Of a DNA stretch of 64,000 nt, positions 2,038 through 62,140 are shown one piece after another (within the stretch, counting starts at the first letter, position 1; each line of letters starts with the position of its first letter). Made by a program: the position numbers and the translations under genes. The stretch covers positions 9,440,675 through 9,504,674 of the forward strand of contig NC_087078.1 of the NCBI RefSeq assembly GCF_026151205.1. The letters are read 5' to 3'. Origin of the DNA: Bolinopsis microptera. Lineage: Eukaryota > Ctenophora > Tentaculata > Lobata > Bolinopsidae. The notes beneath the pieces were generated by a model. The model did not search any database, was not told the DNA's origin, and saw nothing but the letters and a program-made list of their open reading frames with translations.

Positions 2038-2215
2038 CAGAAGGTAAAATCCTGAACTTTTGTTCATTGATTAAAAATCACCATTCAGACATACAATCGT
2101 TCAGATGTAAAAATTATTTATTCACTATTTTGGATTACATTTAGTTACAGGACTAACATGCGACATCCGTCGTTGACCTTTGTCTTTATTTCAGCAAGGT
2201 ACGGAGAGCGATCCA

Positions 2216-3794
<1,579 letters not shown>

Positions 3795-13667: not shown

Positions 13668-15004
13668 TTGATTGATTGGGAACTGGGTTTTACTACCCCA
13701 GTTAATGTTTACTAAAATAGATATTGAACAGCAATTTAATAAGATAAAAATCGTACCAGCGTACTTTAAAATCTGTATGATTCATGAAATTAAAAGTAGC
13801 TATGACCATTAAGAGTTAAATATATTGTTTATATTCCCCATCATGGACTAGTGGCTCAACAAAACTGCGTCGGAAATTAAAGCTCAGCTAAAGCCTGAAG
13901 ACTATTCAGTCTTGTATAGAAAATAACTACAGCTACCAATATGTCCCTCACAAACATGGTCCAAAACATATCAAAACAGCACACGAAACACACACTCAAA
14001 AAAAGTTGTCAACCGTTGCTCTCATCGGCACAATAAATTTGCCCGTCCTTTATGTAAAACTTTTTGGTCGGTTCTGCAAGTGCCCGCTTCTTCATGTCCT
14101 GTACCAGATCTTTCCTGAGCTTCCTCTGTTCGACAGACCGATCAGGGCTCAAGAAAACTGTCTTAAACTTCTCACTCTGCCGCAGGTTCCTGGCATTCCT
14201 CAGAATCTGATCAACGATGAGCGAGTTTGAGGTGATAACTTTAACTGGTCGCGTTGAGTCAACCGTTTTCTTTTTTCCTATTCTCTGAGCCTCTACTTTT
14301 GGCTTTATGCCAATAGTTTCCAGAACTTCACTGACTTGAGATTCGAGCTTCTCTTCTTTTTCCTCAGGCAGACCGAAGATAAGAAGGTTCCTGCTGCGGT
14401 CCTCCTCTGCAACAATAGTCTCGACTACAGACGTCAATGCTTCCGGGCTGATTACTGGAGACTGTGCTGGCCAACTTTGAACGACAGAGCTGTAAGATTG
14501 GAACTCCGCTTTCACTGAATCAGCAACTGAACTTGACACAGTTTTCTTCATCGCTTCAAGTTGCTTAGTCTTGCAGCTGATAGCTCGGCCTGAACACTGA
14601 TAACCTGCTCTTGCTTCACAATTAACTGACCCTGAAGTCTGGTCAACACATTCTTATACGTTTCAACGGTCTCCATAAGATAGTTCGTATACTCAAAAGA
14701 TCGACCACACACATTGACAATCTCCGGCTTATTCAGTCTGTTGAAGTTCTTAGCGTCCGCAATGTCCTTTAACTTTCCGTACGGCTTGCCAAATTTCTTC
14801 AGAGTCTCTTTGCTCCAGGTGAACATCTCATTCCACATGTAATTGATACTTTCCAAGTCCAAATCTGCCATCGTAAAGATCAGCACAACAAGCTAGCAGC
14901 GCAGTAGCGGTGCAATTATCAAGAGATAAGCAGTGCGATAACGAGAGCTAACAATTTTAAAACGGCAGTGAGAGTGTATTTCGACTGAGTGAGAGTGTAT
15001 TTCG
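13668..15004 (-). mobile_element. ORF1-only non-LTR retrotransposon (LINE) relic
   Basis: The insertion is bounded by the broken 230-bp unit: GGTACGTATCG to its left and AAAATGACTCGGACC to its right are contiguous in the intact units at 15236-15262 and 15476-15502. On the minus strand it runs from a 5' leader (about 15004) through ORF1 to a short 3' UTR ending in an (AATC)n tail at about 13668. There is no reverse transcriptase ORF, so it is ORF1 plus UTRs only, like mammalian HAL1 elements. The flanks suggest a very short imperfect target duplication. Confidence 0.75.
14009..14886 (-). pseudogene. LINE ORF1 protein with one frameshift
   Basis: Two overlapping frames (14548-14886 and 14009-14551) make one protein. 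The first encodes an N-terminal domain (MADLDLESINYMWNEM) and the start of a coiled coil (VISVQAELS). The second continues the coiled coil and gives an RRM-like and C-terminal domain typical of LINE ORF1 proteins (RSRNLLIFGLPEE, KVITSNSLIVDQILRNAR, FLSPDRSVEQRKLRKDLV). The frames meet near 14548-14570 with an ATGA stop/start overlap, most simply read as a 1-nt frameshift. ORF1 proteins bind the element RNA as chaperones. Alternatively the two frames are natural and joined by recoding. Confidence 0.7.
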
Positions 15005-16004
15005 AAAATGACTCGGACCGAACATTTTCTAAGTCAACATTTTTCAAAGTTTTTCTGAAAACCACTTTTCTCCATGTTTCATGATACTCTGTTCATTATT
15101 GGCCGAAAATATTTTTTCGGTTTTTCGAAGTCCACACCTTCCCCTCGATACACAATTTTGGACTCGAAGTAATGCGATCTCGGAAGGCAGGCCTCCCCTT
15201 TGCAACACGAGCTCGGAATCGGGAGCTCTCGATACGGGAGGTACGTATCGAAAATGACTCGGACCGAACATTTTTCTAAGTCAGCATTTTTCAAATTTTT
15301 TCTGAATCCGCTTTTCTCCACGTTTCATGCTACCCTGTTCATTATTTGCCGAAAATATTTTTTCGGTTTTTCGAAGTTCACACCTTCCCCTCGATACACA
15401 ATTTTGGACTCGAGGTAATGCGATCTCGGAAGGCAGGCCTCCCCTTTGCAACACGAGCTCGGAATCGGGAGCTCTCGATACGGGAGGTACGTATCGAAAA
15501 TGACTCGGACCGAACATTTTTTAAGTCAGCATTTTTCAAATTTTTTCTGAAAACCGCTTTTCTCCACGTTTCATGCTACCCTGTTCATTATTTGCCGAAA
15601 ATATTTTTTCGGTTTTTCGAAGTCCACACCTTCCCCTCGATACACAATTTTGGACTCGAGGTAATGCGATCTCGGAAGGCAGGCCTGAGGCCTGCCTTCC
15701 GAGATCGCAATGGCCTCCCCTTTGCCTCCCCTTTTCTAAGTCAACATTTTTCAAAGTTTTTCTGAAAACCACTTTTCTCCATGTATCATAATGTTTCATG
15801 ATACTCTGTTCATTATTGGCCGAAAATATCTTTTTTTTAGATAATTTTTCTCGAAATTCTAAATTGTTCAGGTTTTCAATGGCATAAAATGGCATAAAAT
15901 GGAGACTATTTCTATGGAGAAAATGGAAAAACCTATGAGTAATTCTCCATTTTCTCCATTTAGGCCATTGCCCCCCCCCCCCCCCCCCCCCCCCCCTGGA
16001 TACT

Positions 16005-30080: not shown

Positions 30081-31556
30081 GTAGTATATTATTTGTAATT
30101 GTAGCGAGTTATCGGATGTTTTATCTTTGAGCGAGGCTATCTTTATAGGAGTAGTCAAGAAGCTTGAGTTTTGGTGCTATGACGTGCTCCAGATTTTAGA
30201 AGATCTAAATATAAAATCTTTTAATATAATGGGAATTGAGCAGTGAGATTGGTTTCCTTTCTACATGATAACTCATATTGCTGGTGCAGTGATGTTAGGC
30301 ATCTGAGTTTGGGTATTTTAAGGAGCACTCTCTTTGGGAGACCACTGTCCAATTATGCTTTCAAATGATATTATGTTAAAACAAGCTGCGGGGAAGGTTT
30401 TGATAGTCAGCTTAAATAAATTGCGACTACATAAAATCACTGAGACAAGAACAACCATAAATAAGGAATGACAACAAATAATTTGAGTGTTCACTAACAT
30501 TTACATTATTTATATTGCTGTCAATCGATATTATTACGTAAGCCACCTAATTTTACATACCAGCAAATTCATGGAAAAAACGACACTTCAAACCTCAAAA
30601 ATATGATTAACAATCGAAACCAGAAACAGCTGCTTATAATGAAGTTGCACTGCTGAAAGATGTATGAAACAGCGATAGTGAAAAATCGTGATTGATAGAA
30701 GCTGGAGTAGAGTTGAATGGTGAAGGTTTTCTAAGTGTACGTATATGTACCTTGTTTTTGATGAAGCTTTAGTGGGACACGAATGGATGGAGACATCCTG
30801 ATCCGGTAGATTTCCACAAAATGGTCAACCCAACAAAAACTCGGCAGTAAACCTGAAATTGTTAACGAAAGCACAAATTGACCATTGGCGATGAACTTTA
30901 AGTTTTAATCACTCGAAATTAGCATGCTATACCTTTGATCATGAATCACAGACTTTTAATCGAGTAAATAGTGTAGTCAAATATGAAGTATAGAATAACT
31001 GAATAAGGTGTTATTAAGGCTAGACGTTAACTAAGCTTGAAGCAAACTACTGAGGATATAGAACCAGCGCAGCACTCCTGACAAAACCAATTTTGCAATT
31101 TATCCAATGCGAAAATACGTATTAACAGTTAAATGAAAAAAGTTTGGGCGAGCGATTTAGTGAGCGCGTAATGGTCTGGCCCGGCGCGCGCTACTTCGTA
31201 GCACGTGCCAACACTTCGAGAAGAAAGCGGCGCGCGCTAATTCGGAGAAATTTAGACGAGTAACATCCGTCACGTTTTTTAAATTTGTGCGACCAGAAAT
31301 TTATACTAACTGAAACTGTCTTTGTTATTATTTCAGTGCGAACCAGCGCTCACACTCTCACAGAAAATCTTACATCACAGTTGACAGGATAATAATCTTA
31401 GTTATTAATTCTATCAACATTCTCTAATAAAGCGATGATTAAGAAATCCGCTTATTCTGATCTAAAATACCCAAATGATACAGAAATCATGCTTCGTCAC
31501 GTTTCTCCCAAAAAATCACATACTTTAAATTAAAATAAACACATATTGGTTTCTAA
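30081..31556. other. Intergenic region with a short CpG-rich patch
   Basis: No exon recognised. A locally GC/CpG-rich block at about 31140-31260 (GGCCCGGCGCGCGCTAC, GCGGCGCGCGC) stands out from the AT-rich surroundings. It lies just beyond the 3' end of SLC30A6 and may mark an unrelated promoter or a repeat. Confidence 0.35.
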
Positions 31557-34500
31557 CTAAAGCGTCCTCTCATTTCTGAAGCCAGAAGCGTTAAGTTTAG
31601 TAGCAGGTCTGAAGCCATGGGTAGCCGATGCTGACGTCACAGTTGGTCGTGATGACGTCATCAAGGGAGTATGAGCTATGTTGTTGAACAAGGCGGCGGT
31701 CTCTTCTTTTATCACTTGAACGTTGAGAAGTGTAACGTGTTGAGACAGCCTGTGTGTTACCTGTAATATAGTACAACGTCAGTGTAGTATTCTCAGTATG
31801 TTCCAACTTCCACTAAGGATGTCAATTATCATGTCGAAAAAGTGGATAAAACAATTATACTTCGAAGTTTTCTCCGGAATTTTTTTGAAAGGTCACACGA
31901 ATGAGCTTAAAATTATGTCTATTACCACCGCAACATTCCATTAAATATCTTACCTCAGCTAGAACAGTCTGCTATAGATATCTTACCTCAGCTAGAACAG
32001 TCTGCTCCATTAAATATCGTACCTCAGCTAGAACAGTCTGCTCCATTAAATATCTTACCTCAGCTAGAACAGTCTGCTCCATTAAATATCTTACCTCAGC
32101 TAGAACATAGAACAGTTTGCTCTATTACCACCGCAACATTCCATTAAATATCTTACCTCAGCTAGAACAGTCTGCTATAGATATCTTACCTCAGCTAGAA
32201 CAGTCTGCTCCATTGAATATCTTACCTCAGCTAGAACAGTCTGCTCCATTAAATATCTTACCTCAGCTAGAACAGTCTGCTCCATTAAATATCTTACCTC
32301 AGCTAGAACAGTTTGCTCCATTGAATATTTTACCTCAGCTAGAACAGTCTGCTCCATTAAATATCTTACCTCAGCTAGAACAGTCTGCTCCATTAAATAT
32401 CTTACCTCAGCTAGAACAGTCTGCTCCATTAAATATCTTACCTCAGCTAGAACAGTTTGCTCCATTGAATATCTCACCTCAGCTAGAACAGTTTGCTCCA
32501 TTGAATATCTCACCTCAGCTAGAACAGTTTGCTCCATTAAATATCTTACCTCAGCTAGAACAGTCTGCTCCATTAAATATCTCACCTCAGCTAGAACAGT
32601 TTGCTCCATTAAATATCTCACCTCAGCTAGAACAGTCTGCTCCATTAAATATCTCACCTCAGCTAGAACAGTTTGCTCCATTAAATATCTTACCTCAGCT
32701 AGAACAGTTTGCTCCATTAAATATCTCACCTCAGCTAGAACAGTTTGCTCCATTAAATATCTTACCTCAGCTAGAACAGTATGCTCCATTAAATATCGTA
32801 CCTCAGCTAGAACAGTTTGCTCCATTAAATATCTCACCTCAGCTAGAACAGTCTGCTCCATTAAATATCTTACCTCAGCTAGAACAGTTTGCTCCATTAA
32901 ATATCTCACCTCAGCTAGAACAGTCTGCTCCATTAAATATCTCACCTCAGCTAGAACAGTTTGCTCCATTAAATATCTTACATCAGCTAGAACAGTATGC
33001 TCTAAATATCTCACCTCAGCTAGAACAGTTTGCTCCATTAAATATCTTACCTCAGCTAGAACAGTCTGCTCCATTAAATATCTCACCTCAGCTAGAACAG
33101 TTTGCTCCATTAAATATCTTACCTCAGCTAGAACAGTTTGCTCCATTAAATATCTCACCTCAGCTAGAACAGTTTGCTCCATTAAATATCTTACCTCAGC
33201 TAGAACAGTATGCTCCATTAAATATCTTACATCAGCTAGAACAGTATGCTCTAAATATCTCACCTCAGCTAGAACAGTTTGCTCCATTAAATATCTCACC
33301 TCAGCTAGAACAGTCTGCTCCATTAAATATCTTACCTCAGCTAGAACAGTTTGCTCCATTAAATATCTCACCTCAGCTAGAACAGTTTGCTCCATTAAAT
33401 ATTTTACCTCAGCTAGAACAGTATGCTCTAAATATCTTACCTCAGCTAGAACAGTTTGCTCCATTAAATATCTCACCTCAGCTAGAACAGTCTGCTCCAT
33501 TAAATATTTTACCTCAGCTAGAACAGTATGCTCTAAATATCTTACCTCAGCTAGAACAGTTTGCTCCATTAAATATCTTACCTCAGCTAGAACAGTCTGC
33601 TCCATTAAATATCTTACCTCAGCTAGAACAGTTTGCTCCATTGAATATCTTACCTCAGCTAGAACAGTTTGCTCCATTAAATATCTCACCTCAGCTAGAA
33701 CAGTTTGCTCCATTAAATATCTTACCTCAGCTAGAACAGTTTGCTCCATTAAATATCGTACCTCAGCTAGAACAGTTTGCTCCATTAAATATCTTACCTC
33801 AGCTAGAACAGTTTGCTCCATTAAATATCTTACCTCAGCTAGAACAGTTTGCTCCATTAAATATCGTACCTCAGCTAGAACAGTTTGCTCCATTAAATAT
33901 CTTACCTCAGCTAGAACAGTTTGCTCCATTGAATATCTTACCTCAGCTAGAACAGTTTGCTCCATTAAATATCTTACATCAGCTAGAACAGTATGCTCTA
34001 AATATCTCACCTCAGCTAGAACAGTTTGCTCCATTAAATATCGTACCTCAGCTAGAACAGTTTGCTCCATTAAATATCTTACCTCAGCTAGAACAGTTTG
34101 CTCCATTAAATATCTCACCTCAGCTAGAACAGTCTGCTCCATTAAATATTTTACCTCAGCTAGAACAGTATGCTCTAAATATCTTACCTCAGCTAGAACA
34201 GTTTGCTCCATTAAATATCTCACCTCAGCTAGAACAGTCTGCTCCATTAAATATTTTACCTCAGCTAGAACAGTATGCTCTAAATATCTTACCTCAGCTA
34301 GAACAGTTTGCTCCATTAAATATCTTACCTCAGCTAGAACAGTCTGCTCCATTAAATATCTTACCTCAGCTAGAACAGTTTGCTCCATTGAATATCTTAC
34401 CTCAGCTAGAACAGTTTGCTCCATTAAATATCTCACCTCAGCTAGAACAGTTTGCTCTATTAAATATCTTACCTCAGCTAGAACAGTATGCTCCATTAAA

Positions 34501-37500
34501 TATCGTACCTCAGCTAGAACAGTCTGCTCCATTAAATATCTCACCTCAGCTAGAACAGTTTGCTCCATTAAATATTTTACCTCAGCTAGAACAGTATGCT
34601 CTAAATATCTTACCTCAGCTAGAACAGTTTGCTCCATTAAATATCTTACCTCAGCTAGAACAGTCTGCTCCATTAAATATCTTACCTCAGCTAGAACAGT
34701 TTGCTCCATTGAATATCTTACCTCAGCTAGAACAGTTTGCTCCATTAAATATCTCACCTCAGCTAGAACAGTTTGCTCCATTAAATATCTTACCTCAGCT
34801 AGAACAGTTTGCTCCATTAAATATCGTACCTCAGCTAGAACAGTTTGCTCCATTAAATATCTTACCTCAGCTAGAACAGTTTGCTCCATTAAATATCTTA
34901 CCTCAGCTAGAACAGTTTGCTCCATTAAATATCGTACCTCAGCTAGAACAGTTTGCTCCATTAAATATCTTACCTCAGCTAGAACAGTTTGCTCCATTGA
35001 ATATCTTACCTCAGCTAGAACAGTTTGCTCCATTAAATATCTTACATCAGCTAGAACAGTATGCTCTAAATATCTCACCTCAGCTAGAACAGTTTGCTCC
35101 ATTAAATATCGTACCTCAGCTAGAACAGTTTGCTCCATTAAATATCTTACCTCAGCTAGAACAGTTTGCTCCATTAAATATCTCACCTCAGCTAGAACAG
35201 TCTGCTCCATTAAATATTTTACCTCAGCTAGAACAGTATGCTCTAAATATCTTACCTCAGCTAGAACAGTTTGCTCCATTAAATATCTCACCTCAGCTAG
35301 AACAGTCTGCTCCATTAAATATTTTACCTCAGCTAGAACAGTATGCTCTAAATATCTTACCTCAGCTAGAACAGTTTGCTCCATTAAATATCTTACCTCA
35401 GCTAGAACAGTCTGCTCCATTAAATATCTTACCTCAGCTAGAACAGTTTGCTCCATTGAATATCTTACCTCAGCTAGAACAGTTTGCTCCATTAAATATC
35501 TCACCTCAGCTAGAACAGTTTGCTCTATTAAATATCTTACCTCAGCTAGAACAGTATGCTCCATTAAATATCGTACCTCAGCTAGAACAGTCTGCTCCAT
35601 TAAATATCTCACCTCAGCTAGAACAGTTTGCTCCATTAAATATCGTACCTCAGCTAGAACAGTTTGCTCCATTAAATATCTTACCTCAGCTAGAACAGTT
35701 TGCTCCATTAAATATCTCACCTCAGCTAGAACAGTTTGCTCCATTAAATATCGTACCTCAGCTAGAACAGTCTGCTCCATTAAATATCTTACCTCAGCTA
35801 GAACAGTTTGCTCCATTAAATATCGTACCTCAGCTAGAACAGTCTGCTCCATTAAATATCGTACCTCAGCTAGAACAGTCTGCTCCATTAAATATCTTAC
35901 CTCAGCTAGAACAGTTTGCTCCATTAAATATCGTACCTCAGCTAGAACAGTCTGCTCCATTAAATATCTTACCTCAGCTAGAACAGTCTGCTCCATTAAA
36001 TATCTTACCTCAGCTAGAACAGTTTGCTCCATTGAATATCTTACCTCAGCTAGAACAGTTTGCTCCATTAAATATCTCACCTCAGCTAGAACAGTTTGCT
36101 CCATTAAATATCTTACCTCAGCTAGAACAGTATGCTCCATTAAATATCGTACCTCAGCTAGAACAGTCTGCTCCATTAAATATCTCACCTCAGCTAGAAC
36201 AGTTTGCTCCATTAAATATCTTACCTCAGCTAGAACAGTTTGCTCCATTAAATATCTTACCTCAGCTAGAACAGTATGCTCCATTAAATATCGTACCTCA
36301 GCTAGAACAGTTTGCTCCATTAAATATCTTACCTCAGCTAGAACAGTTTGCTCCATTAAATATCTCACCTCAGCTAGAACAGTTTGCTCCATTAAATATC
36401 GTACCTCAGCTAGAACAGTCTGCTCCATTAAATATCTTACCTCAGCTAGAACAGTTTGCTCCATTAAATATCGTACCTCAGCTAGAACAGTCTGCTCCAT
36501 TAAATATCTTACCTCAGCTAGAACAGTTTGCTCCATTAAATATCTCACCTCAGCTAGAACAGTTTGCTCCATTAAATATCGTACCTCAGCTAGAACAGTC
36601 TGCTCCATTAAATATCTTACCTCAGCTAGAACAGTTTGCTCCATTAAATATCGTACCTCAGCTAGAACAGTCTGCTCCATTAAATATCGTACCTCAGCTA
36701 GAACAGTCTGCTCCATTAAATATCGTACCTCAGCTAGAACAGTCTGCTCCATTAAATATCGTACCTCAGCTAGAACAGTCTGCTCCATTAAATATCGTAC
36801 CTCAGCTAGAACAGTCTGCTCCATTAAATATCGTACCTCAGCTAGAACAGTCTGCTCCATTAAATATCTTACCTCAGCTAGAACAGTTTGCTCCATTAAA
36901 TATCGTACCTCAGCTAGAACAGTCTGCTCCATTAAATATCGTACCTCAGCTAGAACAGTCTGCTCCATTAAATATCGTACCTCAGCTAGAACAGTTTGCT
37001 CCATTAAATATCTCACCTCAGCTAGAACAGTCTGCTCCATTAAATATCTTACCTCAGCTAGAACAGTTTGCTCCATTAAATATTTACCTCAGCTAGAACA
37101 GTATGCTCTAAATATCTTACCTCAGCTAGAACAGTTTGCTCCATTAAATATCTTACCTCAGCTAGAACAGTCTGCTCCATTAAATATCTTACCTCAGCTA
37201 GAACAGTTTGCTCCATTGAATATCTTACCTCAGCTAGAACAGTTTGCTCCATTAAATATCTTACCTCAGCTAGAACAGTTTGCTCCATTAAATATCTCAC
37301 CTCAGCTAGAACAGTCTGCTCCATTAAATATCTTACCTCAGCTAGAACAGTTTGCAACATTAAATATCTTACCTCAGCTAGAACAGTTTGCTCCATTGAA
37401 TATTTTACCTCAGCTAGAACAGTATGCTCTAAATATCTTACCTCAGCTAGAACAGTCTGCTCCATTAAATATCTTACCTCAGCTAGAACGGGGGGGGGGG

Positions 37501-40500
37501 GGGGGGGGGGGGGGGCCAATGGCATAAAATGGCATAAAATGGAGACTTTTTCTATGGAGAAAATGGAAAAACCCATGAGTAATTCTCCATTTTCTCCATT
37601 TTATGCCATGAATTTTGTCTTCGAAATTTCATTTAACACCTAAATTGGACATCCTAACATGTTTATTGACGCCTTACTAGGGGCGTAACAAGCTTATGAA
37701 AGCTCATAATAGGAGGGTTAATTTTTTAAGTCAAAATTTTTCAAAGTTTTTCCGAAAAACACTTTTCTCCACGTTTCATGCTACCCTGTTCATTATTTGC
37801 CGAAAATATTTGTTCGGTTTTTCGAAGTTCACAACTTCCCCTCGATACACAATTTTGGACTCGAGGTAATGCGATCTCGGAAGGCAGACCTCCCCTTTGA
37901 AACACGAGCTCGGAATCGGGAGCTCTCGATACGGGAGGTACGTATCGAAAATGACTCGGACCGAACATTTTCTAAGTTAACATTTTTCAAAGTTTTTCTG
38001 AAAACCACTTTTCTCCATGTTTCATGATACCCTGTTCATTTTTGGCCGAAAATATCTTTTTTTAAAATAATTTTTCTCGAAATTCTAGATTTTTCAGGTT
38101 TTCAATGGCATAAAATGGCATAAAATGGCATAAAATGGAGACTATTTCTATGGAGAAAATGGAAAAACCTATGAGTAATTCTCCATTTTCTCCATTTATG
38201 CCATTGGCCCCCCCCCCCCCCCGCTAGAACAGTTTGCTCCATTGAATATCTTACCTCAGCTAGAACAGTCTGCTCCATTGAATATCTTACCTCAGCTAGA
38301 ACAGTTTGCTCTATTACCACCGCAACATTCCATTAAATATCTTACCTCAGCTAGAACAGTCTGCTCCATTAAATATATTACCTCAGCTAGAACAGTTTGC
38401 TCCATTAAATATCTTACCTCAGCTAGAACAGTCTGCTCCATTAAATATCTTACCTCAGCTAGAACAGTTTGCTCCATTAAATATCTTACCTCAGCTAGAA
38501 CAGTCTGCTCCATTAAATATCGTACCTCAGCTAGAACAGTCTGCTCCATTAAATATCTTACCTCAGCTAGAACAGTTTGCTCCATTAAATATCGTACCTC
38601 AGCTAGAACAGTCTGCTCCATTAAATATCGTACCTCAGCTAGAACAGTCTGCTCCATTAAATATCTTACCTCAGCTAGAACAGTTTGCTCCATTAAATAT
38701 CGTACCTCAGCTAGAACAGTCTGCTCCATTAAATATCTTACCTCAGCTAGAACAGTCTGCTCCATTAAATATCTTACCTCAGCTAGAACAGTTTGCTCCA
38801 TTGAATATCTTACCTCAGCTAGAACAGTTTGCTCCATTAAATATCTCACCTCAGCTAGAACAGTTTGCTCCATTAAATATCTTACCTCAGCTAGAACAGT
38901 ATGCTCCATTAAATATCGTACCTCAGCTAGAACAGTCTGCTCCATTAAATATCTCACCTCAGCTAGAACAGTTTGCTCCATTAAATATCGTACCTCAGCT
39001 AGAACAGTTTGCTCCATTAAATATCTTACCTCAGCTAGAACAGTTTGCTCCATTAAATATCTCACCTCAGCTAGAACAGTTTGCTCCATTAAATATCGTA
39101 CCTCAGCTAGAACAGTCTGCTCCATTAAATATCTTACCTCAGCTAGAACAGTTTGCTCCATTAAATATCGTACCTCAGCTAGAACAGTCTGCTCCATTAA
39201 ATATCTTACCTCAGCTAGAACAGTTTGCTCCATTAAATATCTCACCTCAGCTAGAACAGTTTGCTCCATTAAATATCGTACCTCAGCTAGAACAGTCTGC
39301 TCCATTAAATATCTTACCTCAGCTAGAACAGTTTGCTCCATTAAATATCGTACCTCAGCTAGAACAGTCTGCTCCATTAAATATCGTACCTCAGCTAGAA
39401 CAGTCTGCTCCATTAAATATCTCACCTCAGCTAGAACAGTCTGCTCCATTAAATATCTTACCTCAGCTAGAACAGTTTGCTCCATTAAATATTTTACCTC
39501 AGCTAGAACAGTATGCTCTAAATATCTTACCTCAGCTAGAACAGTTTGCTCCATTAAATATCTTACCTCAGCTAGAACAGTCTGCTCCATTAAATATCTT
39601 ACCTCAGCTAGAACAGTTTGCTCCATTGAATATCTTACCTCAGCTAGAACAGTTTGCTCCATTAAATATCTTACCTCAGCTAGAACAGTTTGCTCCATTA
39701 AATATCTCACCTCAGCTAGAACAGTCTGCTCCATTAAATATCTTACCTCAGCTAGAACAGTTTGCAACATTAAATATCTTACCTCAGCTAGAACAGTTTG
39801 CTCCATTGAATATTTTACCTCAGCTAGAACAGTATGCTCTAAATATCTTACCTCAGCTAGAACAGTCTGCTCCATTAAATATCTTACCTCAGCTAGAACG
39901 GGGGGGGGGGGGGGGGGGGGGGGGGGGCCAATGGCATAAAAATGGCATAAAATGGAGACTTTTTCTATGGAGAAAATGGAAAAAACCCATGAGTAATTCT
40001 CCATTTTCTCCATTTTATGCCATGAATTTTGTCTTCGAAATTTCATTTAACACCTAAATTGGACATCCTAACATGTTTATTGACGCTTACTAGGGGCGTA
40101 ACAAGCTTATGAAAGCTCATAATAGGAGGGTTAATTTTTTAAGTCAAAATTTTTCAAAGTTTTTCCGAAAAACACTTTTCTCCACGTTTCATGCTACCTT
40201 GTTCATTATAAGCCGAAAATATTTTTTCGGTCAAAATTTTTCAAATTTTTTCTGAAAACCGCTTTTCTCCACGTTTCATGCTACCCTGTTCATTATTTGC
40301 CGAAAATATTTGTTCGGTTTTTCGAAGTTCACACCTTCCCCTCGATACACAATTTTGGACTCGAGGTAATGCGATCTCGGAAGGCAGACCTCCCCTTTGA
40401 AACACGAGCTCGGAATCGGGAGCTCTCGATACGGGAGGTACGTATCGAAAATGACTCGGACCGAACATTTTCTAAGTTAACATTTTTCAAAGTTTTTCTG

Positions 40501-43500
40501 AAAACCACTTTTCTCCATGTTTCATGATACCCTGTTCATTTTTGGCCGAAAATATCTTTTTTTTAAATAATTTTTCTCGAAATTCTAGATTTTTCAGGTT
40601 TTCAATGGCATAAAATGGCATAAAATGGCATAAAATGGAGACTATTTCTATGGAGAAAATGGAAAAACCTATGAGTAATTCTCCATTTTCTCCATTTATG
40701 CCATTGGCCCCCCCCCCCCGCTAGAACAGTTTGCTCCATTGAATATCTTACCTCAGCTAGAACAGTCTGCTCCATTGAATATCTTACCTCAGCTAGAACA
40801 GTCTGCTCCATTAAATATCGTACCTCAGCTAGAACAGTCTGCTCCATTAAATATCTTACCTCAGCTAGAACAGTTTGCTCCATTAAATATCGTACCTCAG
40901 CTAGAACAGTCTGCTCCATTAAATATCTTACCTCAGCTAGAACAGTCTGCTCCATTAAATATCTTACCTCAGCTAGAACAGTTTGCTCCATTGAATATCT
41001 TACCTCAGCTAGAACAGTTTGCTCCATTAAATATCTCACCTCAGCTAGAACAGTTTGCTCCATTAAATATCTTACCTCAGCTAGAACAGTATGCTCCATT
41101 AAATATCGTACCTCAGCTAGAACAGTCTGCTCCATTAAATATCTCACCTCAGCTAGAACAGTTTGCTCCATTAAATATCGTACCTCAGCTAGAACAGTTT
41201 GCTCCATTAAATATCTTACCTCAGCTAGAACAGTTTGCTCCATTAAATATCTCACCTCAGCTAGAACAGTTTGCTCCATTAAATATCGTACCTCAGCTAG
41301 AACAGTCTGCTCCATTAAATATCTTACCTCAGCTAGAACAGTTTGCTCCATTAAATATCGTACCTCAGCTAGAACAGTCTGCTCCATTAAATATCTTACC
41401 TCAGCTAGAACAGTTTGCTCCATTAAATATCTCACCTCAGCTAGAACAGTTTGCTCCATTAAATATCGTACCTCAGCTAGAACAGTCTGCTCCATTAAAT
41501 ATCTTACCTCAGCTAGAACAGTTTGCTCCATTAAATATCGTACCTCAGCTAGAACAGTCTGCTCCATTAAATATCGTACCTCAGCTAGAACAGTCTGCTC
41601 CATTAAATATCTCACCTCAGCTAGAACAGTCTGCTCCATTAAATATCTTACCTCAGCTAGAACAGTTTGCTCCATTAAATATTTTACCTCAGCTAGAACA
41701 GTATGCTCTAAATATCTTACCTCAGCTAGAACAGTTTGCTCCATTAAATATCTTACCTCAGCTAGAACAGTCTGCTCCATTAAATATCTTACCTCAGCTA
41801 GAACAGTTTGCTCCATTGAATATCTTACCTCAGCTAGAACAGTTTGCTCCATTAAATATCTTACCTCAGCTAGAACAGTTTGCTCCATTAAATATCTCAC
41901 CTCAGCTAGAACAGTCTGCTCCATTAAATATCTTACCTCAGCTTGAACAGTTTGCAACATTAAATATCTTACCTCAGCTAGAACAGTTTGCTCCATTGAA
42001 TATTTTACCTCAGCTAGAACAGTATGCTCTAAATATCTTACCTCAGCTAGAACAGTCTGCTCCATTAAATATCTTACCTCAGCTAGAACGGGGGGGGGGG
42101 GGGGGGGGCCAATGGCATAAAATGGCATAAAATGGAGACTTTTTCTATGGAGAAAATGGAAAAACCCATGAGTAATTCTCCATTTTCTCCATTTTATGCC
42201 ATGAATTTTGTCTTCGAAATTTCATTTAACACCTAAATTGGACATCCTAACATGTTTATTGACGCTTACTAGGGGCGTAACAAGCTTATGAAAGCTCATA
42301 ATAGGAGGGTTAATTTTTAAGTCAAAATTTTTCAAAGTTTTTCCGAAAAACACTTTTCTCCACGTTTCATGCTACCTTGTTCATTATAAGCCGAAAATAT
42401 TTTTTCGGTCAAAATTTTTCAAATTTTTTCTGAAAACCGCTTTTCTCCACGTTTCATGCTACCCTGTTCATTATTTGCCGAAAATATTTTTTCGGTTTTT
42501 CGAAGTTCACACCTTCCCCTCGATACACAATTTTGGACTCGAGGTAATGCGATCTCGGAAGGCAGGCCTCCCCTTTGAAACACGAGCTCGGAATCGGGAG
42601 CTCTCGATACGGGAGGTACGTATCGAAAATGACTCGGACCGAACATTTTCTAAGTTAACATTTTTCAAAGTTTTTCTGAAAACCACTTTTCTCCATGTTT
42701 CATGATAACCTGTTCATTTTTGGCCGAAAATATCTTTTTTTAAAATAATTTTTCTCGAAATTCTAGATTTTTCAGGTTTTCAATGGCATAAAATGGCATA
42801 AAATGGCATAAAATGGAGACTATTTCTATGGAGAAAATGGAAAAACCTATGAGTAATTCTCCATTTTCTCCATTTATGCCATTGGCCCCCCCCCCCCCCC
42901 GCTAGAACAGTTTGCTCCATTGAATATCTTACCTCAGCTAGAACAGTCTGCTCCATTGAATATCTTACCTCAGCTAGAACAGTTTGCTCTATTACCACCG
43001 CAACATTCCATTAAATATCTTACCTCAGCTAGAACAGTCTGCTCCATTAAATATCTTACCTCAGCTAGAACAGTTTGCTCCATTAAATATCTTACCTCAG
43101 CTAGAACAGTCTGCTCCATTAAATATCTTAACTCAGCTAGAACAGTTTGCTCCATTAAATATCTTACCTCAGCTAGAACAGTCTGCTCTATTAAATATCT
43201 TACCTCAGCTAGAACAGTTTGCTCCATTGAATATTTTACCTCAGCTAGAACAGTATGCTCTAAATATCTTACCTCAGCTAGAACAGTTTGCTCCATTAAA
43301 TATCTTACCTCAGCTAGAACAGTTTGCTCCATTAAATATCTTACCTCAGCTAGAACAGTCTGCTCGTTGGCATCTCGTCTGACCCTTACGTCGAGGGTTC
43401 CCGCTAAAACACCCCAAGTTAACGTCCAGAAGTGCTCGTTCCTGTAAAAAGCAGTGATGTTCACATCTTCTAGCTTAGATATGTGAAATAAATCAAAATA

Positions 43501-46597: not shown

Positions 46598-46676
<79 letters not shown>

Positions 46677-48397
46677 GGCAGACAGGCAGGCAGGCAGACA
46701 GACAGACAGACAGACAGACCGACAGACAGACAGACAGACAGATACCTGTCATTGGCAGTAAGGTAGCGATGGTAATAAAGCTGATAAGGATAGCTATAAG
46801 AGGATCTGCTCCTGGCAGATCATATGAAGTAACTAGGTAGTATGAAGCTGCAACCCCCAGAGAGGATAAACCTGAAACGGGAGGAGAGTTAAAAAGTTAG
46901 AGCGTCCATTTCTATCATGAATATCATAGATCATTTGCCGGTAAATAAAAATAAAAACAAAACAAAACTTACATGTTACAAGAGCTAACGGGTTGAGAGG
47001 TTTACCAGGCAGAAACAATCCTGCCAGAAGAGGCACATACCCGAACAAGCTGCTACCTAATCGGAAAACAAGCTTAAAGTGGCAAATCAGTAGTCACGTG
47101 ACATTTGGAGTTAATAAAATACCAGTTCTAAATAGTGAGAGGTGAAATGATACCATCGAGTGTTTTTTTCCATAAAAAATACTTAACTTAAATCAATATC
47201 CATACTTCATTCATTTTATCTTGTCACGAAGGCGGATTCCGTCGTAAAATAAAAAAGATTGAATTGCAAGAAGTTCCGAGTTTAGTTACCTAAATCGTTG
47301 ACTGAGTCCTGTACCCAGTTGCTGGGAGAGGAGCGAGCTAGGTGCTCGTAAGCTGGGTTCTTCACCAGAAAAGTAGCTCCGAAATGTAGTCCAAGACCTG
47401 GTATTGAGTATATTGATTAGTAGGGGGAGGCAGGACATATTATTTGCTTTGACACGTGATGATTGGTAAAATGCGACCATTTAAGTAAAGCGTAGTTTGC
47501 TGAAATCTGTTCAAACACTTGCTTAGTGTTTAGTGCTTATTTCATTAATAAATATAACTTCCAACTTTGACTCAAAAACAGCGCATAAAATCTCACAAAC
47601 CAAACACAGTAGCCGGGAGCATGGAATCAGGTCTGAAGTCCAGTCCCTCGAGGAGATGATGCACAGCTTCCTTTATGATAAAGAAGGAAATGAACTGGGT
47701 GAGTAGAGTAGCGGAGAACACAGCCAGAACCTCTACTCTGGAGTAACCGTATGTGAAGGTCAGGGAGGGAGCCTGTTTCTCTGACCATCTGAACAATAAA
47801 TAATTCAATATTCTCCTCACATAATGTTGCAGGTTGAGCTTCAACCCGCTAATTTGTTTCAATTTCTTTCCTAGCCCCAACCCTCTGATGTTTCGATCAA
47901 TTTTCAAAAATTTGTATTACAGCTATCAAAAATATCCAGTATTGGACTCTACCTGCAGCCGATAGGATTAAAGAAAGTAATTACCTGAAGATGAGAGCGG
48001 ATACGAGATTAGCAAAGTCAAATAGGGTGAGAAAGGTGAGGGCCCGCAAAGCTAGACTGTTTGTAGAGTAAACCCAGTAAAACATGAATAGTATACCTGG
48101 AGAATTAGAGTTATTAGAAATGTAATAAAATAAGCAAATATTTTCTATTATATAGGTGAATACTGAATAATTATATAACATTGACTTAACTTAGCATTAT
48201 GAATGGCCACCGAAAAATCATTTTACTGCTCTTTGACTGCAACTAAAATAAGTCGGATTTAGTTCCTTAATCCAAGTAAAATATCATTTTCAAAAATTCA
48301 GGTTCAACTGACCTAAGAATGTTCCAGATATGGCATAAATACATCTCCGAGATTGAGGGTCACCGGAGAGCGATCTCAACTCCTTTAGCAAACCCAT
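31557..48397 (-). CDS. SLC30A6: Zinc transporter ZnT6, nine coding exons
   Basis: Exons on the minus strand: 48397-48313, 48096-47985, 47788-47601, 47397-47290, 47056-46973, 46871-46746, 46445-46340, 43441-43345, 31760-31557. All have GT-AG boundaries and matching phases. They total 1110 nt, 369 residues. Matches to human ZnT6 as I recall it: YSTNSLALRALTFLTLFDF, RVEVLAVFSATLL, TSKVLLQTTPGHM, TLDGVLEFRNEHFWTL, RVRRDANEQTVLAE and VTHRLSQHVTLLNVQVI. ZnT6 is a SLC30 family member of the early secretory pathway that pairs with ZnT5 and itself lacks the TM2/TM5 zinc ligands; no HxxxD is visible here either. The C-terminal disordered tail is shorter than in human (461 residues). The start is the ATG at 48397, and an upstream acceptor (TTATTAG at 48422) may mean a further 5' exon. 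The last intron contains the 36-bp donor array. Confidence 0.93.
37490..38222. mobile_element. G-tract foldback element in the array, copy 1
   Basis: 733 bp, starting with a G run and ending with a C run, flanked by GCTAGAAC (37482-37489 and 38223-38230), an 8-bp target duplication taken from the array unit. Palindromic end modules (ATGGCATAAAATGG ... CCATTTTATGCCAT) and one copy of the 230-bp unit identify it as a relative of the element at 12594-15996. No ORF of its own. Confidence 0.88.
39900..40719. mobile_element. G-tract foldback element in the array, copy 2
   Basis: 820 bp, same ends and same GCTAGAAC flanks (39892-39899, 40720-40727) as copy 1 and the same neighbouring array variants, including the unusual unit with TTTGCAACATT about 140 bp to its left. 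Slightly longer than copy 1 because an extra partial repeat (TTTTCGGTCAAAATTTTTC) is present. It is therefore a segmental copy, not a separate insertion. Confidence 0.88.
42090..42900. mobile_element. G-tract foldback element in the array, copy 3
   Basis: 811 bp, with GCTAGAAC on both sides (42082-42089, 42901-42908). Internal sequence and left-hand array context match copy 2. Spacing between copies is 2410 and 2190 bp, so this is the third member of a higher-order repeat. Confidence 0.88.
43442..44404. other. SLC30A6 intron sequence, nothing recognised
   Basis: AT-rich intron between the exon at 43345-43441 and the nested gene; no exon or repeat recognised. It will contain the promoter of the nested gene if that gene is transcribed independently. 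Confidence 0.4.
44405..45064 (+). CDS. Small secreted protein nested in a SLC30A6 intron
   Basis: Two exons, 44405-44462 and 44616-45064, join in frame (ACAG|GTAGGC, AACACCTAG|GC) to give 168 residues. Residues 1-15 (MMLLITTIFITGISA) form a clear signal peptide. The mature part is a beta-rich domain with several Tyr and Cys residues: KLDILFYSNDQWAGGISIIS, YYLYYCGGSYYE, ATIEIWRITLTK, VRVVVQCNEVEVVNILMS, DQILFTIRDTGSHFYR. The TGA at 45062-45064 is followed within 10 bp by AATAAA (45074-45079), which supports this as the terminal exon. The pattern resembles extracellular domain families found in cnidarians, but I cannot name the family. It lies on the strand opposite to its host gene. Confidence 0.75.
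45065..46339. other. SLC30A6 intron, with an isolated G tract
   Basis: No exon recognised. A run of about 24 G at 45383-45406 resembles the terminal G tracts of the foldback elements, but I find no partner C run or target duplication nearby, so it may be a solo end or a simple homopolymer. Confidence 0.4.
46599..46741. repeat. (CAGA)n microsatellite
   Basis: About 35 tetranucleotide units, with CAGG variants at 46676-46697. The array ends immediately next to the donor of SLC30A6 exon 46746-46871 (plus-strand CAGATAC|CTG), that is, within 5 bp of a splice site. Confidence 0.95.
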
Positions 48398-50069: not shown

Positions 50070-53000
50070 TCAATCATCATCGTCGTTGTCAATATCGTTG
50101 TCATTTTCATCGTCATCATCATCATCTTTTTCGGATTCTTCACTTTCGCTTTCACTTTTCTCCTCTTCACTATTTTCACTTTCACTATCACTTTTATCTT
50201 CAGCTTGTTTATTTAATTGCTGGATAGCTCCGTCTTTTTTATCTTTGTTCTTGTCTTGGTCTTTGTTTTCCCCGTCAAGTTTATCTTTGTCCTTATTTTC
50301 GTCATCACTGCCTGCTTCGTCATCGAATATATCGTTGTCAAGCAATTCTCGTTCCAGCTGTTTGGCATCAAACCTAAAATCGCGTGTTTCAAATTAAATA
50401 TTCTGCGATATCATCACTCATCAGACTTATAAAAATCAAGCCTCAAAAGTTGACGAATTTTTACGGTTTATAAAAAAAAACCTTTAAAAAAATATTAATT
50501 AAGAGTCCATTATCAGCACTCTTACGTGGATTGAATGTTCTGGAGTTTTCGTCGGGCATCAGTTTTATTCCTCTTCAGTTGTTTCCGCAGCATAGGATCT
50601 TCTTTAGCGGGGTCTTTAGTAATGTCCACCTGGTCCATCAGATGAAACCCACCGTCCAACCTGAGTAAATGTGGAGTTATAGGACGTGAATCTTGACTAA
50701 TGATGGGTAGGCGATGTTAATTGTTTAACTAGCTATTAAAAGGAGCAGTTTGGACTTTGGAGCATATTAATATTATATTACTTTATAAGTATCTACGCCT
50801 GCAGTTAGTAGCCCAGTGATTATTTCAACAAGTACACATAAGGGGGACATAATTGTAATTCTGAGACTGATGTGCTGCATATTTTGTTAATATTACTCCA
50901 CTATCGTCAGTATTGTGCAATTCGTACAATAATTAAAATCTCTCACTCGATAATTGCTAAGGGTAAGGGTTACATAAGCTAAAGAATCGCACTCAACACC
51001 TGTTAAGGGGAGCGATTTTTATTATCATATTATACTTTTATTGTCCCGGTCATCAAAGCGTGATCTTTCTAAAATTTACGCAACATTTGTCAAGTTTATA
51101 CATGTGTTTTCGTCTTTCGCAAGAAAGTTGACCTTAAATGGCTTATTTTGCCACGATGCTAGGCCAGGTATTATCTAAAACAATAAGAAAATAAATAAAA
51201 GTTCGAATGTCAGGTGTAAACGTGAACAAATATTACTTCAGCTCAGTATTCTTTTAAGGTTGGGGCGAATGGGTGCCTTGAGAAAAATTGCTCTAAAAAG
51301 TTTCTCCCCGTCAGTTTCAGTCTGATAACTTTTTGGGTTGTTTGATTGACAACATATTCCTGAAGAGAAACCTACGTTAAGAATTTATTCACATAATATA
51401 TGTGTTATTAATTGGAATTCTTGCCCTTACTATCAACACTTGTTGAGAGGAGTGATATGTACTTAGTATTATATATCTTAGTATATTATATTATCGTATA
51501 ATCGTCCCGACGGTCGTCTAAGCTGGGTTTTCCGAAGAAAATGTACGTCGATCTCGCACTATTTTTCAATTCTATAATATCTTATTTGTTTTTGTCTTTC
51601 TGGCTCACGGAGAATTTACTTCGAATAACTTAATTACGACAATAATAGAGTATGAACAATCTAAGACAGAGAGATTAAATTTTTCTTAAATTTTCGGTAT
51701 AAACGTGAACAAATATTACTTCAGTTCCGTTTTTCTGTGTGACTGTATCTGAGATCCAGCGTCTAGGAACACTTGCTTGGCCAATGTTTTCACTTTTTTC
51801 TCCTTCATTGAAATTTTGCACTCTTTTAAACCCCGCTCGATCAGACGTCTGACATCCTGAATATCTGGAAATTTCTGAAAATATAATTAGGTTTAGGATT
51901 TATGCTATTAGTGGTAAATAAGCAGGATTTCATTTTACAATATTTAATTTCCAGCCAGATTAAACGGGTTTAATGGGTTAGGAAACCTGTCGTGCGTTGA
52001 GTCTTTCTTCAATATACTGGGATAAGACTGGAATGCCACAGTTAACTTTCACGTTGAAGTAGTAATGACAGTTTAGGTCACCTTGAACCTCTTCTAACTT
52101 TTGTAAAACCTTCCTATGTTTCTTCTTCAACTTTGCCTCCTGAAAACGTTGCCGGTTATTTAAATTAAATAATATAGGCTCAGTTGAACTATTTTGGGGG
52201 TGAAGAAAGTGAAAGCATTCTGGTTTCAGCACTGCACCTTGGTTCAAACACTATCAATTTTTAACATGCCATATAATATAGTGCGAAATTTGCTAATTTT
52301 CAGTATGTGAATTGTGATCGGTCCAACGGTCAATCCACGTGTTATGACATAACATCACGTATTAAACAATCATAACATGCAAACCTGTAGGTATAGATTA
52401 CCCCACTTGTCCATCTCTTCACAATCAATATCAGCCTCCTGGACAGCCTTGATCCGTCTGGCTAACCGGACTAGTTTCCGGCTCAGTTTCTCCACTTGTG
52501 CTACTTTCTGCTTGTACTCCTCCGACTCTTCGTCCACTTCCGGGTCAGGGTCATCTTGAAATATTTTGCTAGTCTCTCTTCAATCAATATTTAATTAATT
52601 TATTCAGCGCATTTAATTAATGTTTATATACATACTTGGAGATGTAGAGATAAGAAGAGAGAGCGACGCTGATTATAATTGTTCCTTAAATACTAACACA
52701 TATATTTAGAGATAAAATCATCAAAAGCATCTCACCTTCGCTCTCAGATTCCTTGTTCGGCTCACTATCGTCAGAGTCGCTAACCACGGTAATACGTGAG
52801 CTGCTAGGCTGTGCATCCATCTTAAAACAGGCTGGTATCTTAAATCCAGTCACTGCAGGTCCTGCAGGTTTCAAACTAACTCTCTTTTTCTCTGGCTCTT
52901 TGCTTTTATCCGGTTGGGGAGGGTTTAGAGATTGTACTGATAGCCTTTTAGGTTGTTCAGTATTTAGAGATTGTAATGATATCCTTTTAGGTTGTTCAGG

Positions 53001-54781
53001 ATTAAGAGATTGTAATGATATCCTTTTAGGTTGTTCAGTATTTAGAGATTGTAATGAAAGCCTTTTAGGTTGTTCAGGATTTAGAGATTGTAAATATGAT
53101 ATCCTTTTGGGTGGTTTAGGGAAGAAGATATTACTAACTGGATCAGTTGTTTTTGTTTTGTTTTCATCTTGTTTCATATCAGAAGGGGTTTCAGAAGGAG
53201 TTTCAGAAGGGGTTTCAGAAGGGGTTTCACATGGCATCACGTAATCTGGTCTCAAGGTAACTTCACGGGACTTGTTTTGAAGTGGACCAAGTTTAATCTC
53301 CACGTATTGCACATTCCCGGGTTTCACTGAGGTAATCATGCAGTCACGTGATGTCTCCTTAATAAACTCAATGCTTTTCTGGGATAACGAAATAGGAGTG
53401 TGCCGCTCGGGTCGTTCGTCACTCTCCATCTCGTAATTTGAGATATCCTCCTTTTCGACGAGACTCTGACTGGAGGGTATAGTCAAGTCATTAGGACCGA
53501 CTTCAGCACGTTCGTCCGTTTTTTGTTTTGCGGGGTTTGTATTTTGACCAACAACAAAAATAACAGAGTCAGATGATTCTTCTCCAGCTTCCATACGCGA
53601 TTCTTCAGTAGAAGTAGACACTTCGACATCATTAATGATAGTCAATGATTCGCCGCAATCAGGTTCGCTGTTAATTAGACCAACAATTTCTTCTCTTTGA
53701 TCTTCAACAGGAGGATCAATAATTTCTAACGAACCAGACACTGGAGTAGTTACGACCGTGTTCTGTTTTGTTGGGTTCGAATTCTGACCAACGATGAAAA
53801 TGACGGGGTCTGATGATTCTTCTTCAACTTCCCTCCTTGTTTCATCTTCAGAAGTAGACGCACCGGCTATAGTCAAGGATTCGCCACAATCAGTTTCCTT
53901 GTTGATAGGACTGACAACTGTATCTCCTTGATCGCCCTCATTTGGTTCAATTATCTCTAAAGAGTCAGACGTTGATGATTTGTGTCTCCTCTGTTTGATC
54001 TCCTGTTTCATTTCGGACAATTCACAAGAAACGTTTTCAGGAGCTGGCAGATTCTCGACAGCTTCCTCTGGTGGCGATGTTTCAGTCCCCAGCTCATGCA
54101 TGTTATCATTGAAAATTCTAACGGAATCCGATGTCGAACTCTTATCGCTGGAAGAATTGTCGGACTCTATCTCTGTAGCAGAGAGCAGTTCGGATGAGGT
54201 TGGGATATTTTGCTGAGTTTCAAGAGTTGCGATTATACAGGAGTATTTTAATAAGTCATCTCTGTTCAGAACATTTGTACTCAAGCTATTCCTTTCTTCC
54301 TCAGTATTCTCCTCATCGTGATCTTCTGTTTCTTCGCATTTTCCGGAATCTTTCTCCCTTTCAGTTTTATCTGATTTTCCTTCAGAAGAATTTTCTATAT
54401 TATCGGGATCAATTTCCTCCGCTTCTTCGGTGGTTGCATTCTTTTCCACTTTCCGTATTTTGTTCACTTTCATCTTCGTTCTTTTTATTAGAGGCAATAA
54501 TAGTGATATCTCCAATATTCCCAACACTCTCCGGAGAAGTTTCTTGAGCACACTTCGAAGGATCCATTTGTTTGCTTCCAACTTCACCGTAATCAGTGTC
54601 AGAAAGATCATTTGAGTCGCAGCCAGATTTAGAATTCTCGCTCTGATCGGTGGCGTCTATGTTTGTGGGGAAAGGAATTAAATCCTGGTCGATAAGAGGC
54701 GAGGACAAGTTGCTTGAAGACTTGGCTGCCGATGGAGAGGTCGCTTTCTCGTCACGTGGTATCGATATAGATGTCCTGGAA
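50070..54781 (-). CDS. DAXX: DAXX homologue (H3.3 histone chaperone), 5' incomplete
   Basis: Exons on the minus strand: 54781-52736, 52554-52385, 52139-51987, 51874-51720, 50660-50526, 50373-50070, phases matching from 52736 on. The four middle exons encode the DAXX histone-binding domain: KLVRLARRIKAVQEADIDC, YIEERLNARQ, KFPDIQDVRRLIERGLKE, LAKQVFLDAGSQIQ, GFHLMDQVD and LRKQLKRNKTDARRKLQ, each alignable with human DAXX as I recall it. The last exon is the acidic tail (about 100 residues, Asp/Glu/Lys/Ser). DAXX deposits histone H3.3-H4 with ATRX and binds SUMO. The large first exon is a disordered, acidic region with LQSLNPEQPKRI-type repeats, SETP repeats and SUMO-interacting motifs (DITIIASN; RITVVSDSDDSE). 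Unlike human DAXX, this long region precedes the histone-binding domain. A 1-nt frame break lies near 54440-54450 (run of four A on the sense strand): upstream and downstream frames are both acidic and coding-like, so an indel or assembly error is likely. The N-terminal helical bundle exon was not found. Confidence 0.88.
50990..51740. repeat. Diverged intronic duplication including a splice donor
   Basis: Two related segments in the DAXX intron, about 50990-51245 and 51428-51740, share ACGTGAACAAATATTACTTC plus flanking phrases such as TGTTTTCGTCTTTC / TGTTTTTGTCTTTC. The second overlaps the end of exon 51720-51874. On the sense strand both contain GCTGAA or ACTGAA followed by GTAATATTTGTTCACG, so the real donor has a decoy copy about 490 bp into its own intron. 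Confidence 0.7.
52925..53235. repeat. DAXX: In-frame coding repeats of DAXX exon 1
   Basis: Five tandem units of about 36-39 bp (52925-53110) encode LQSLNPEQPKRIS-like blocks, and four 15-bp units (53178-53230) encode SETP blocks. Both are multiples of three and lie in the disordered region next to the histone-binding domain. Confidence 0.9.
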
Positions 54782-60376: not shown

Positions 60377-62140
60377 CTACCTGGACTCACTAAGGTTCTC
60401 AGAAACCAAATCAATGACCACAGTGCTTGTCCCCAGAGACGATTCCTTGACGACTGGGCTGGTTCCCCGGGACGTTTCCTTGACGACGGGGCTGGTTCCC
60501 CGGGACGTTTCCTTGACGACGGGGCTGGTTCCCCGGGACGTTTCCTTGACGACGGGGCTGGTTCCCCGGGATGTTTCCTTAGAGGGTGCTGTAATCTTCG
60601 ATTTTATGAATAATTCCATGCAGTCCCCAAGACAACACAGAATCCTTGCAGCGTAGGACTTTTTGTTCAATGTCAACTCGTTTTCTGTGAGCTCAACCTT
60701 CTTTATTCTGTCCAGAGCAGTTCGTTTTACTCCGTGCAGTGCACTGAAAAAGGAGTAGATATTGGTCACCAGTGCAGAGATACGAGACATTATCATTTAA
60801 AACAAAAGAATTAATCCTAGCATTAAATAGTTATAACTCTGACGCTGCCAAACGTTTGCGCAGGTTCAGTTCGCTCCTAAGTTCAGTTTGCAAAGCAAAC
60901 CTGCACAAAAGTTCAAAACAGTGACCCAAGTTATTATTAAACGAATTCGTAGTTCTAACCTTCGGAATTTCTGTTGAAATAGTTTAATCATCTTTACTTT
61001 AGTCTCAGGCAGCACTTTCGTCAGCAACCGTATGAAAATAGCGAACATGACATACTCTGACAAGTGGTAGGGTACAATCTGGTAGTGAGCAGAGAACCAG
61101 TCCCCAGGTTTGATCTCCACTGGGTTTATATCCATGAAATATTTCATCATTAGCAGCCTCCGGAGGTGGTAGAGCAGCGACAAGGGTGACTGAACATTCA
61201 GCAACATTGAACAGTACGTGTTTACGGAAGCTAGAGAAACATTCTTCTTGTCCAGGTGTAGTGAGAGAATGTGGTTGATAAATATCCTCATAACCTCCTG
61301 CACATCGGCCTCATCAGAAAATTTTGTTTGGATTGAGGTGAGGTTATCTACAATCTTTTCGAAGTGACTAGAGTTATCCTGTGAAGGAGTGAGTGGTGAA
61401 CTTGAGCTCCTTTCTGAGACTGAAGGAATATTCGAGATAATCTGCGCGGGTATTACATTGCAGGCAGTCTGGAGCTGAGGTCTTGAGTGAGTAGCGTGAG
61501 AAGCACTAGAATTAGAGGAACCTTGCCGTACGAGCATTACGGGAGGGAGCATTCCGGGAGGGAGCATTCCGGGAGGGAGGCTGACTGCAGGGAGGCTGTA
61601 TTTCGTCATTTCCTCAATTATCTCCGCTCGGGAAGGATCTAACCTCCGCCCCTCAAAATCCAAATCAATGACCACTGGGCTTGTCTTCCTGGACGTTTCC
61701 ATAACGACTGTGCTGGCTCCCCGGGAGGGTGCCGATTTATGGGAGGGAGGCTGTCTGTAGGGAGGCTGTATTATTGTATGCCCTTCCTCAATTATCTCAG
61801 CTCGGGGAGGGTCTAACCTCCGCCTCTTCTGCGGACGCTCACTCTGCAGACGCTGACTCGCAGCATTTGTCTCGGACACCATGTCATGCGCAAACCCTTT
61901 GAGTCTTCTAACTACGTTCTCTTGGTTGAGACCTCGTGTGCAGTTTTCAATGTGCTGTTTGAACTTGGAACTAAGGAGGTAACTGTTGGGGCACGTGTGT
62001 TTAACTGCGTCAAGATTAGCAAAGAATTGACTGAAGAGTGCGCTCCTAGGAACAAGTTGTCGGACATCTTCAACCATTGAGATGTAGAGTGAGTGGTTGT
62101 CAGGTTCCTCGTCGGAGTCGAGGTTCACAACTTCGACCAT
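60377..62140 (-). CDS. Protein with several SUMO-interacting motifs and a helical domain
   Basis: Exons 62140-60960 and 60743-60377 join in frame (CCGAAG|GTTAG, CTTTTTCAG|T), giving 515 residues. SUMO-interacting motif candidates lie at the N-terminus (VEVVNLDSDEE), in the middle (SPVVIDLDFE) and at the C-terminus (TSTVVIDLVSE). Residues about 33-100 form a helical segment (LFSQFFANLDAVKH ... SSKFKQHIENC) that vaguely resembles the DAXX N-terminal helical bundle. A second helical domain spans about residues 250-440 (DVQEVMRIFINHILSL, SPLSLLYHLRRLLMMKYF, YVMFAIFIRLLTKVLP). KETSRGTSPVV is repeated four to five times near the end. Candidates are a SIMC1/SLF2-type protein or a DAXX-related protein. 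I do not recognise it with confidence. It is on the same strand as DAXX. Confidence 0.7.
60440..60576. repeat. 33-bp coding minisatellite
   Basis: Four to five copies of a 33-bp unit containing GACGACGGGGCTGGTTCCCC, in frame in the multi-SIM gene and encoding the 11-residue block KETSRGTSPVV. The last copy degenerates into a SUMO-interacting motif (TSTVVIDL). A separate, diverged copy of the same block is at about 61670-61710. Confidence 0.93.

Follow-up and report, generated by a model that had tools for sequence, protein, structure and literature searches.

The 64,000-nucleotide stretch of the genome of the lobate ctenophore Bolinopsis microptera analysed here (the window; contig NC_087078.1, positions 9,440,675 to 9,504,674) carries on its minus strand a ZnT6/SLC30A6-like gene, at 48397-31557, whose eighth intron is occupied by a minisatellite built from that intron's own 5' splice junction. 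The gene model comprises nine exons encoding 369 aa, with its start codon and untranslated regions predicted: exons 1-5 lie at 48397-48313, 48096-47985, 47788-47601, 47397-47290 and 47056-46973, and exons 6-9 at 46871-46746, 46445-46340, 43441-43345 and 31760-31557. Every intron of the nine-exon model is GT-AG; intron 8 (43344-31761) spans 11,584 bp, and the other seven measure 216, 196, 203, 233, 101, 300 and 2898 bp. Exon 8 (97 nt) ends at GAG|GTAAGA, and exon 9, the last coding exon, resumes ZnT6 at VTHRLSQHV, both as read in an earlier note made from the letters alone; its stop lies at 31557. That note also placed the two flanking exons in one ZnT6 gene, a claim upheld by the nine-exon translation, by the transporter domain, by homologues named ZnT6 and by five relatives that read ANEQTVLAE|VTHRL across the join. 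Searches of Pfam and of homologues were run with a 341-aa version of the gene lacking exon 5, and placed Cation_efflux (PF01545) at residues 20-214 (E 9.7e-25). Among the 120 matches listed of 1387, those with names were mostly 'zinc transporter 6', the others being unnamed, hypothetical or labelled only 'cation efflux'; the named ZnT6 proteins among them were 37-46% identical, and no ctenophore name appeared in these 120, many of which are nameless, so that a RefSeq model for this ZnT6 may not exist, may be listed without a name or may fall beyond the lengths covered. The homologue alignment continues across the exon 8/9 junction and, judged by such comparison, exons 8 and 9 are consecutive exons of one ZnT6 gene. 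Intron 6 of the same gene holds a (CTGT)n microsatellite (46598-46742, minus strand) that starts at its fourth base, exon 6 ending at 46746.

The junction minisatellite (31939-43365, minus strand) contains 251 cores of a 36-bp unit, a core being counted where it differs by no more than one substitution. The unit, GAGCAGACTGTTCTAGCTGAG|GTAAGATATTTAATG, joins 21 exonic nt from the end of exon 8 (43365-43345) to 15 intronic nt from the start of intron 8; the earlier note had correctly recognised an exon tail fused to an intron head and a length of 36 bp, and had listed the two parts as 18 and 15 nt. Its claim of a junction-derived minisatellite with about 250 candidate donors holds, as GT is kept after 250 of the 251 cores: the donor hexamers are GTAAGA (138), GTACGA (49), GTGAGA (47), GTAAAA (14), GTAATA (1) and GTAAAT (1), with TTAAGA in the one remaining core. 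Spacing between units (n=250) is 36 bp in 223 cases, 33 bp in 20 and other in seven. The genome (264.65 Mb) contains the 18-mer CTCAGCTAGAACAGTCTG 92 times, of which 88 fall in this array and four in a partial copy some 210 kb away (locus L009), and contains the reversed pattern nowhere; with this control and the output of Tandem Repeats Finder (TRF), chance or a simple repeat as origin of the array is ruled out. When 249 copies were scored for pairing with U1, 133 with GAG|GTAAGA reached -9.6 kcal/mol and 47 with GTGAGA -9.7 kcal/mol, the remaining 69 pairing more weakly (-4.3 to -6.9 kcal/mol); the gene's other seven donors range from -5.3 to -8.1 kcal/mol. Thus 180 of the 249 scored copies pair with U1 at least as well as the real exon 8 donor, and better than all other donors of the gene. 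What is left of the original intron is a 193-bp GT...AG remnant (31761-31953, minus strand), running from the donor of the last unit to the acceptor. With a unit that holds an exon end and an intron start, complete with usable-looking splice signals, the array is of the type termed 'mirage' in amphioxus.

The array fills intron 8, as had been claimed, with interruptions: the boundary sequence between array and intron recurs in three internal copies (window 43009, 38331 and 32142), and an inserted element is present three times. Long strings of units recur between blocks of the array, and such internal block duplications suggest, for this one assembly, past instability in length. Poly-G/poly-C runs form the termini of the element, whose ends are inverted (GGG..CCAATGGCATAAA); it is flanked by an 8-bp direct repeat, GCTAGAAC. 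Copies 3 (42090-42900) and 2 (39900-40719) have identical 8-bp flanks, as does copy 1 (37490-38222), which is internally shorter by just under 90 bp; all three lie on the minus strand and differ from one another by about 1-2% in addition to that indel. Since they share both flanks and unit context, a single insertion was later amplified together with the array. Further pieces related to this poly-G/poly-C inverted-repeat element, some in tandem, lie elsewhere in the window at 12594-15996.

Both common spacings, 36 and 33 bp, can be divided by three, so that reading frame is kept from unit to unit. The frame entering from exon 8 is open across the first 10 cores, GT following nine of them, and meets its stop at 42970. 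Given this spacing, use of any of donors 2-10 would insert complete residues ahead of the in-frame stop; donors past it would yield truncated products. Because the frame ends there, the array as a whole can be rejected as a coding exon. An open stretch of 1,637 codons deeper in the array exists because the repeat period is divisible by three, and has no known exon link. Evidence as to which donor is used comes from protein sequences. The protein P0002 (jgi; 337 aa, from an intron-free contig of 1,186 bases) shares 336 of 337 residues with the ZnT6-like product, and its sequence ANEQTVLAE|VTHRL joins exon 8 to exon 9 without an extra unit; four further unnamed proteins (P0001 and P0003-P0005, 67-92% identical) show the same insert-free AE|VT join. 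A contig of this length without the gene's introns would derive from mRNA or from a retrocopy, and P0002 is most likely a transcript. Such protein-level evidence suggests that the first donor is used, a partial answer to the question of donor choice that the earlier note had raised.

Arrays of this kind are found at other genes of the same chromosome (C7). Twenty 10-kb stretches (L012-L031), evenly spaced along it and picked irrespective of repeats, gave a 200-kb sample with 47 arrays (period of at least 10 and at least three copies); a stricter cut (period of at least 14, at least three copies and at least 100 bp) kept 24, five of which, at three loci, sit on splice junctions. At L021, the array at 1-5083 has a 64-bp period and at least 79 units (the locus starts inside it), each composed of 55 nt of an SRCR exon tail plus GTTAGTTAC, and a 42-bp array of four copies (5972-6139) begins at a second SRCR exon's donor; the two SRCR-domain exons are neighbours on the same strand. 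At L027, a 35-bp array (386-2033; 47 units, 44 with GT) repeats the tail of a putative exon plus GTGAGC; this exon shows splice sites as well as an open frame, but Pfam gave no match to it and PDB none of use. The remaining two lie in one intron of an actin-3-like gene (L031; G000:C7:19014299-19024298), with 40 donor units at its 5' side (5848-6849; 25 bp, exon tail plus GTGAGT) and 11 acceptor units at its 3' side (5004-5516; 47 bp, intron tail GTTCCTCAG plus exon head). Hence the picture of many donors facing a single acceptor, proposed in the earlier note, fits the ZnT6 gene model and does not extend to this second gene. SRCR and Actin domains at L021 and L031 are supported by Pfam (2.6e-12, 1.7e-10 and 5.9e-12). 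Isoform X1 of the actin-3-like protein, a model predicted by NCBI, joins KTLGL straight to MFVPQ, as would fit use of the first donor and the last acceptor; predicted isoform X2 reads DAKAL|MFVPQ from an alternative homologous upstream exon, and so bears on the last acceptor only.

The other 19 of the 24 arrays were not assigned to junctions, that at L014 8625 sitting inside an open frame. Two further candidates stand outside the five counted: L017 5326-5767, whose unit contains GTG|GTAAGT, and L030 9403, where an array starts at the fifth base past a possible CAG|GT. Neither the translated flanks of more arrays in L012, L013 and L019 nor the flanking frames of 17 arrays produced another junction case. 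One must consider that, exons being many, some array edges are expected near junctions by chance. Enrichment of donor motifs over dinucleotide shuffles was not significant in 28 arrays (the 24 of the sample, two others of the window and two of L009, the ZnT6 array having been excluded beforehand): p<0.05 was reached by two, of which one is the copy of the ZnT6 array at L009 (Fisher, p 0.085; binomial test, p 0.41). As this test was negative, the case for recurrence at junctions is made by gene evidence on individual arrays, without a statistic. It is quite possible, if short of probable, that junction minisatellites recur throughout the genome of B. microptera, with nearly identical donors or acceptors competing in their tens to hundreds within an intron, that its spliceosome obeys a single rule by which the exon-flanking sites (first donor, last acceptor) win, and that a mutational process linked to splicing may seed the arrays at junctions.

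For the ZnT6 gene itself, we regard it as probable that intron 8 contains a near-neutral splice-junction minisatellite of the mirage type, removed whole as the exon-flanking sites win. What can be read directly is the anatomy, the copy number, the higher-order blocks, the gene identity, a nearly identical intron-free sequence compatible with donor 1, and other such arrays; the duplication mechanism, exon definition as the reason for donor choice, and neutrality we infer. A 36-bp tandem duplication across the exon 8 donor would have placed a second donor behind the first, probably through slippage at a 2-bp GA common to AAC-GA-GCAG in the exon and AATG-GA-ATG in the intron; further rounds of slippage, together with unequal exchange and the duplication of larger blocks, would then have raised the copies to about 250. 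Under exon definition, U1 would pair at whichever donor lies closest to the acceptor upstream, so that the first donor would still define exon 8, whose length of 97 nt would suit such recognition, and the whole array would leave as one intron, making expansion close to neutral: if the first donor wins and stays first, the mRNA is unchanged and the array can grow almost freely. In older experiments with duplicated donors the intron-proximal donor was reportedly preferred; such a preference would here leave the array, stop included, in the mRNA, and P0002 indicates otherwise. Several considerations nevertheless weigh against this account. P0002 is evidence at the level of protein and may instead have come from a retrocopy; it stands for a 90%-identity cluster of three sequences, in which isoforms with one to three extra units could hide; repeats can collapse in short-read assembly; and the animal behind P0002 may carry a shorter allele. 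The NCBI actin-like isoforms are predicted models. Finally, 221 full-length units show 12 types of substitution, of which three are synonymous in the exon 8 frame; this count speaks for the account, but those three are the commonest (116, 49 and 43 of 221 units), although block copying can also produce such a pattern.

That the synonymous changes are the commonest, together with spacings divisible by three and a frame open over the first 10 cores, of which nine have GT, would also be consistent with a variable coding repeat, in which donors 2-10 are used as well and yield ZnT6 isoforms with 12-residue in-frame inserts, (EQTVLAEVRYLM)n, after the membrane domain. There is a precedent in human IFI6 (6-16/G1P3): its minisatellite supplies several splice donors (Turri, Cuin and Porter 1995, known to us via citations), and according to a citing sentence two downstream repeat units act as donors, with three mRNAs. 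We consider such coding use unlikely for ZnT6: none of the five closest sequences has an insert, the later units lie behind the stop, which bars the greater part of the array from being translated in continuation of exon 8, and a search with the array frame (exon 8 plus the first units), in which the 8000 candidates with most shared words were scored, returned seven matches at 20% coverage each and no repeat-bearing protein among them, the candidates being about 98-313 aa only; the five matches inspected align to the exon part.

The strong predicted pairing of 180 scored copies, set against the weaker range of the gene's other donors, might alternatively mean that the array acts as a sponge for U1 or in telescripting, many U1 sites per transcript titrating U1 or curbing premature polyadenylation, and the intron's only AATAAA motifs, three in all, do lie inside the three inserted elements. 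However, the pre-mRNA of one gene could not plausibly rival cellular U1, and nothing found in this analysis ties the array to regulation, leaving the earlier suggestion of U1 titration unsupported and this function very improbable. Marginally less remote, and still with little chance of being right, is inflation of a much shorter array by the assembler. Duplicated blocks are a well-known cause of misassembly, and the exact length in the assembly may be off; the blocks nevertheless vary in unit order and internal indels, the element copies have diverged in sequence and length as described above, and unrelated genes carry similar arrays.

The kind of structure proposed for ZnT6, a junction minisatellite spliced out whole, has been described before. 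Amphioxus mirages are, in the available text of PMC3087553 and PMC3902484, tandem repeats of exon-intron boundaries in Adh3, the globins BflGb6 and BflGb9, troponin C and PGBD5, unstable in length and with units of 10-72 bp (Adh3) or 150-160 bp (BflGb6), and the ZnT6 array matches them in structure and normal splicing. The claim that no case had been described is thus not supported, the kind being known from amphioxus and IFI6. In scale, 251 units in a ctenophore do exceed the six and three of the two haplotypes of chordate BflGb6, as given in that text, and nothing close to this size turned up in the literature consulted. Higher-order blocks and an amplified insertion also set the ZnT6 array apart from the mirages. 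Like IFI6 as cited, it supplies multiple donors; unlike IFI6, where downstream donors are used, its evidence fits the first. Intron gain via duplicated AG|GT proto-splice sites (PMC3087553, as far as its available text goes) likewise makes extra splice signals from a duplicated junction, whereas the ZnT6 case enlarges an existing intron and creates no new one. Among the open-licence papers listed, no report of such arrays in ctenophores was found, which does not imply their absence elsewhere in print. The novelty lies in the size, judged against the BflGb6 unit counts available to us, in the block structure, in a ctenophore as host and in the pairing of donor and acceptor arrays.

Such arrays offer a natural test of splice-site choice by cells. 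Most work on how identical splice sites compete has, to our knowledge, used two or a few engineered copies; in this living animal a lone acceptor faces 250 nearly identical donors, and a second gene has 40 donor copies facing 11 acceptor copies. The sites used discriminate between exon definition (outermost sites, short exon) and a preference for the intron-proximal donor. If it is true that these arrays are common in the ctenophore as in amphioxus, junction minisatellites would be a broad route of intron growth.

The copy at L009 on C7 is of a 915-bp segment (31169-32083) that takes in the downstream flank, exon 9, the end of intron 8 and the exon-9-side units. It runs from L009 4034 onward without a single difference and adjoins an unrelated 42-bp repeat; from this identity, it is in all appearance a very recent partial gene copy. 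Elsewhere in the window, two open frames that we take to be DAXX-like, at 52686-54656 and 60377-62155, hold frame-keeping tandem repeats of 39 and 33 bp.

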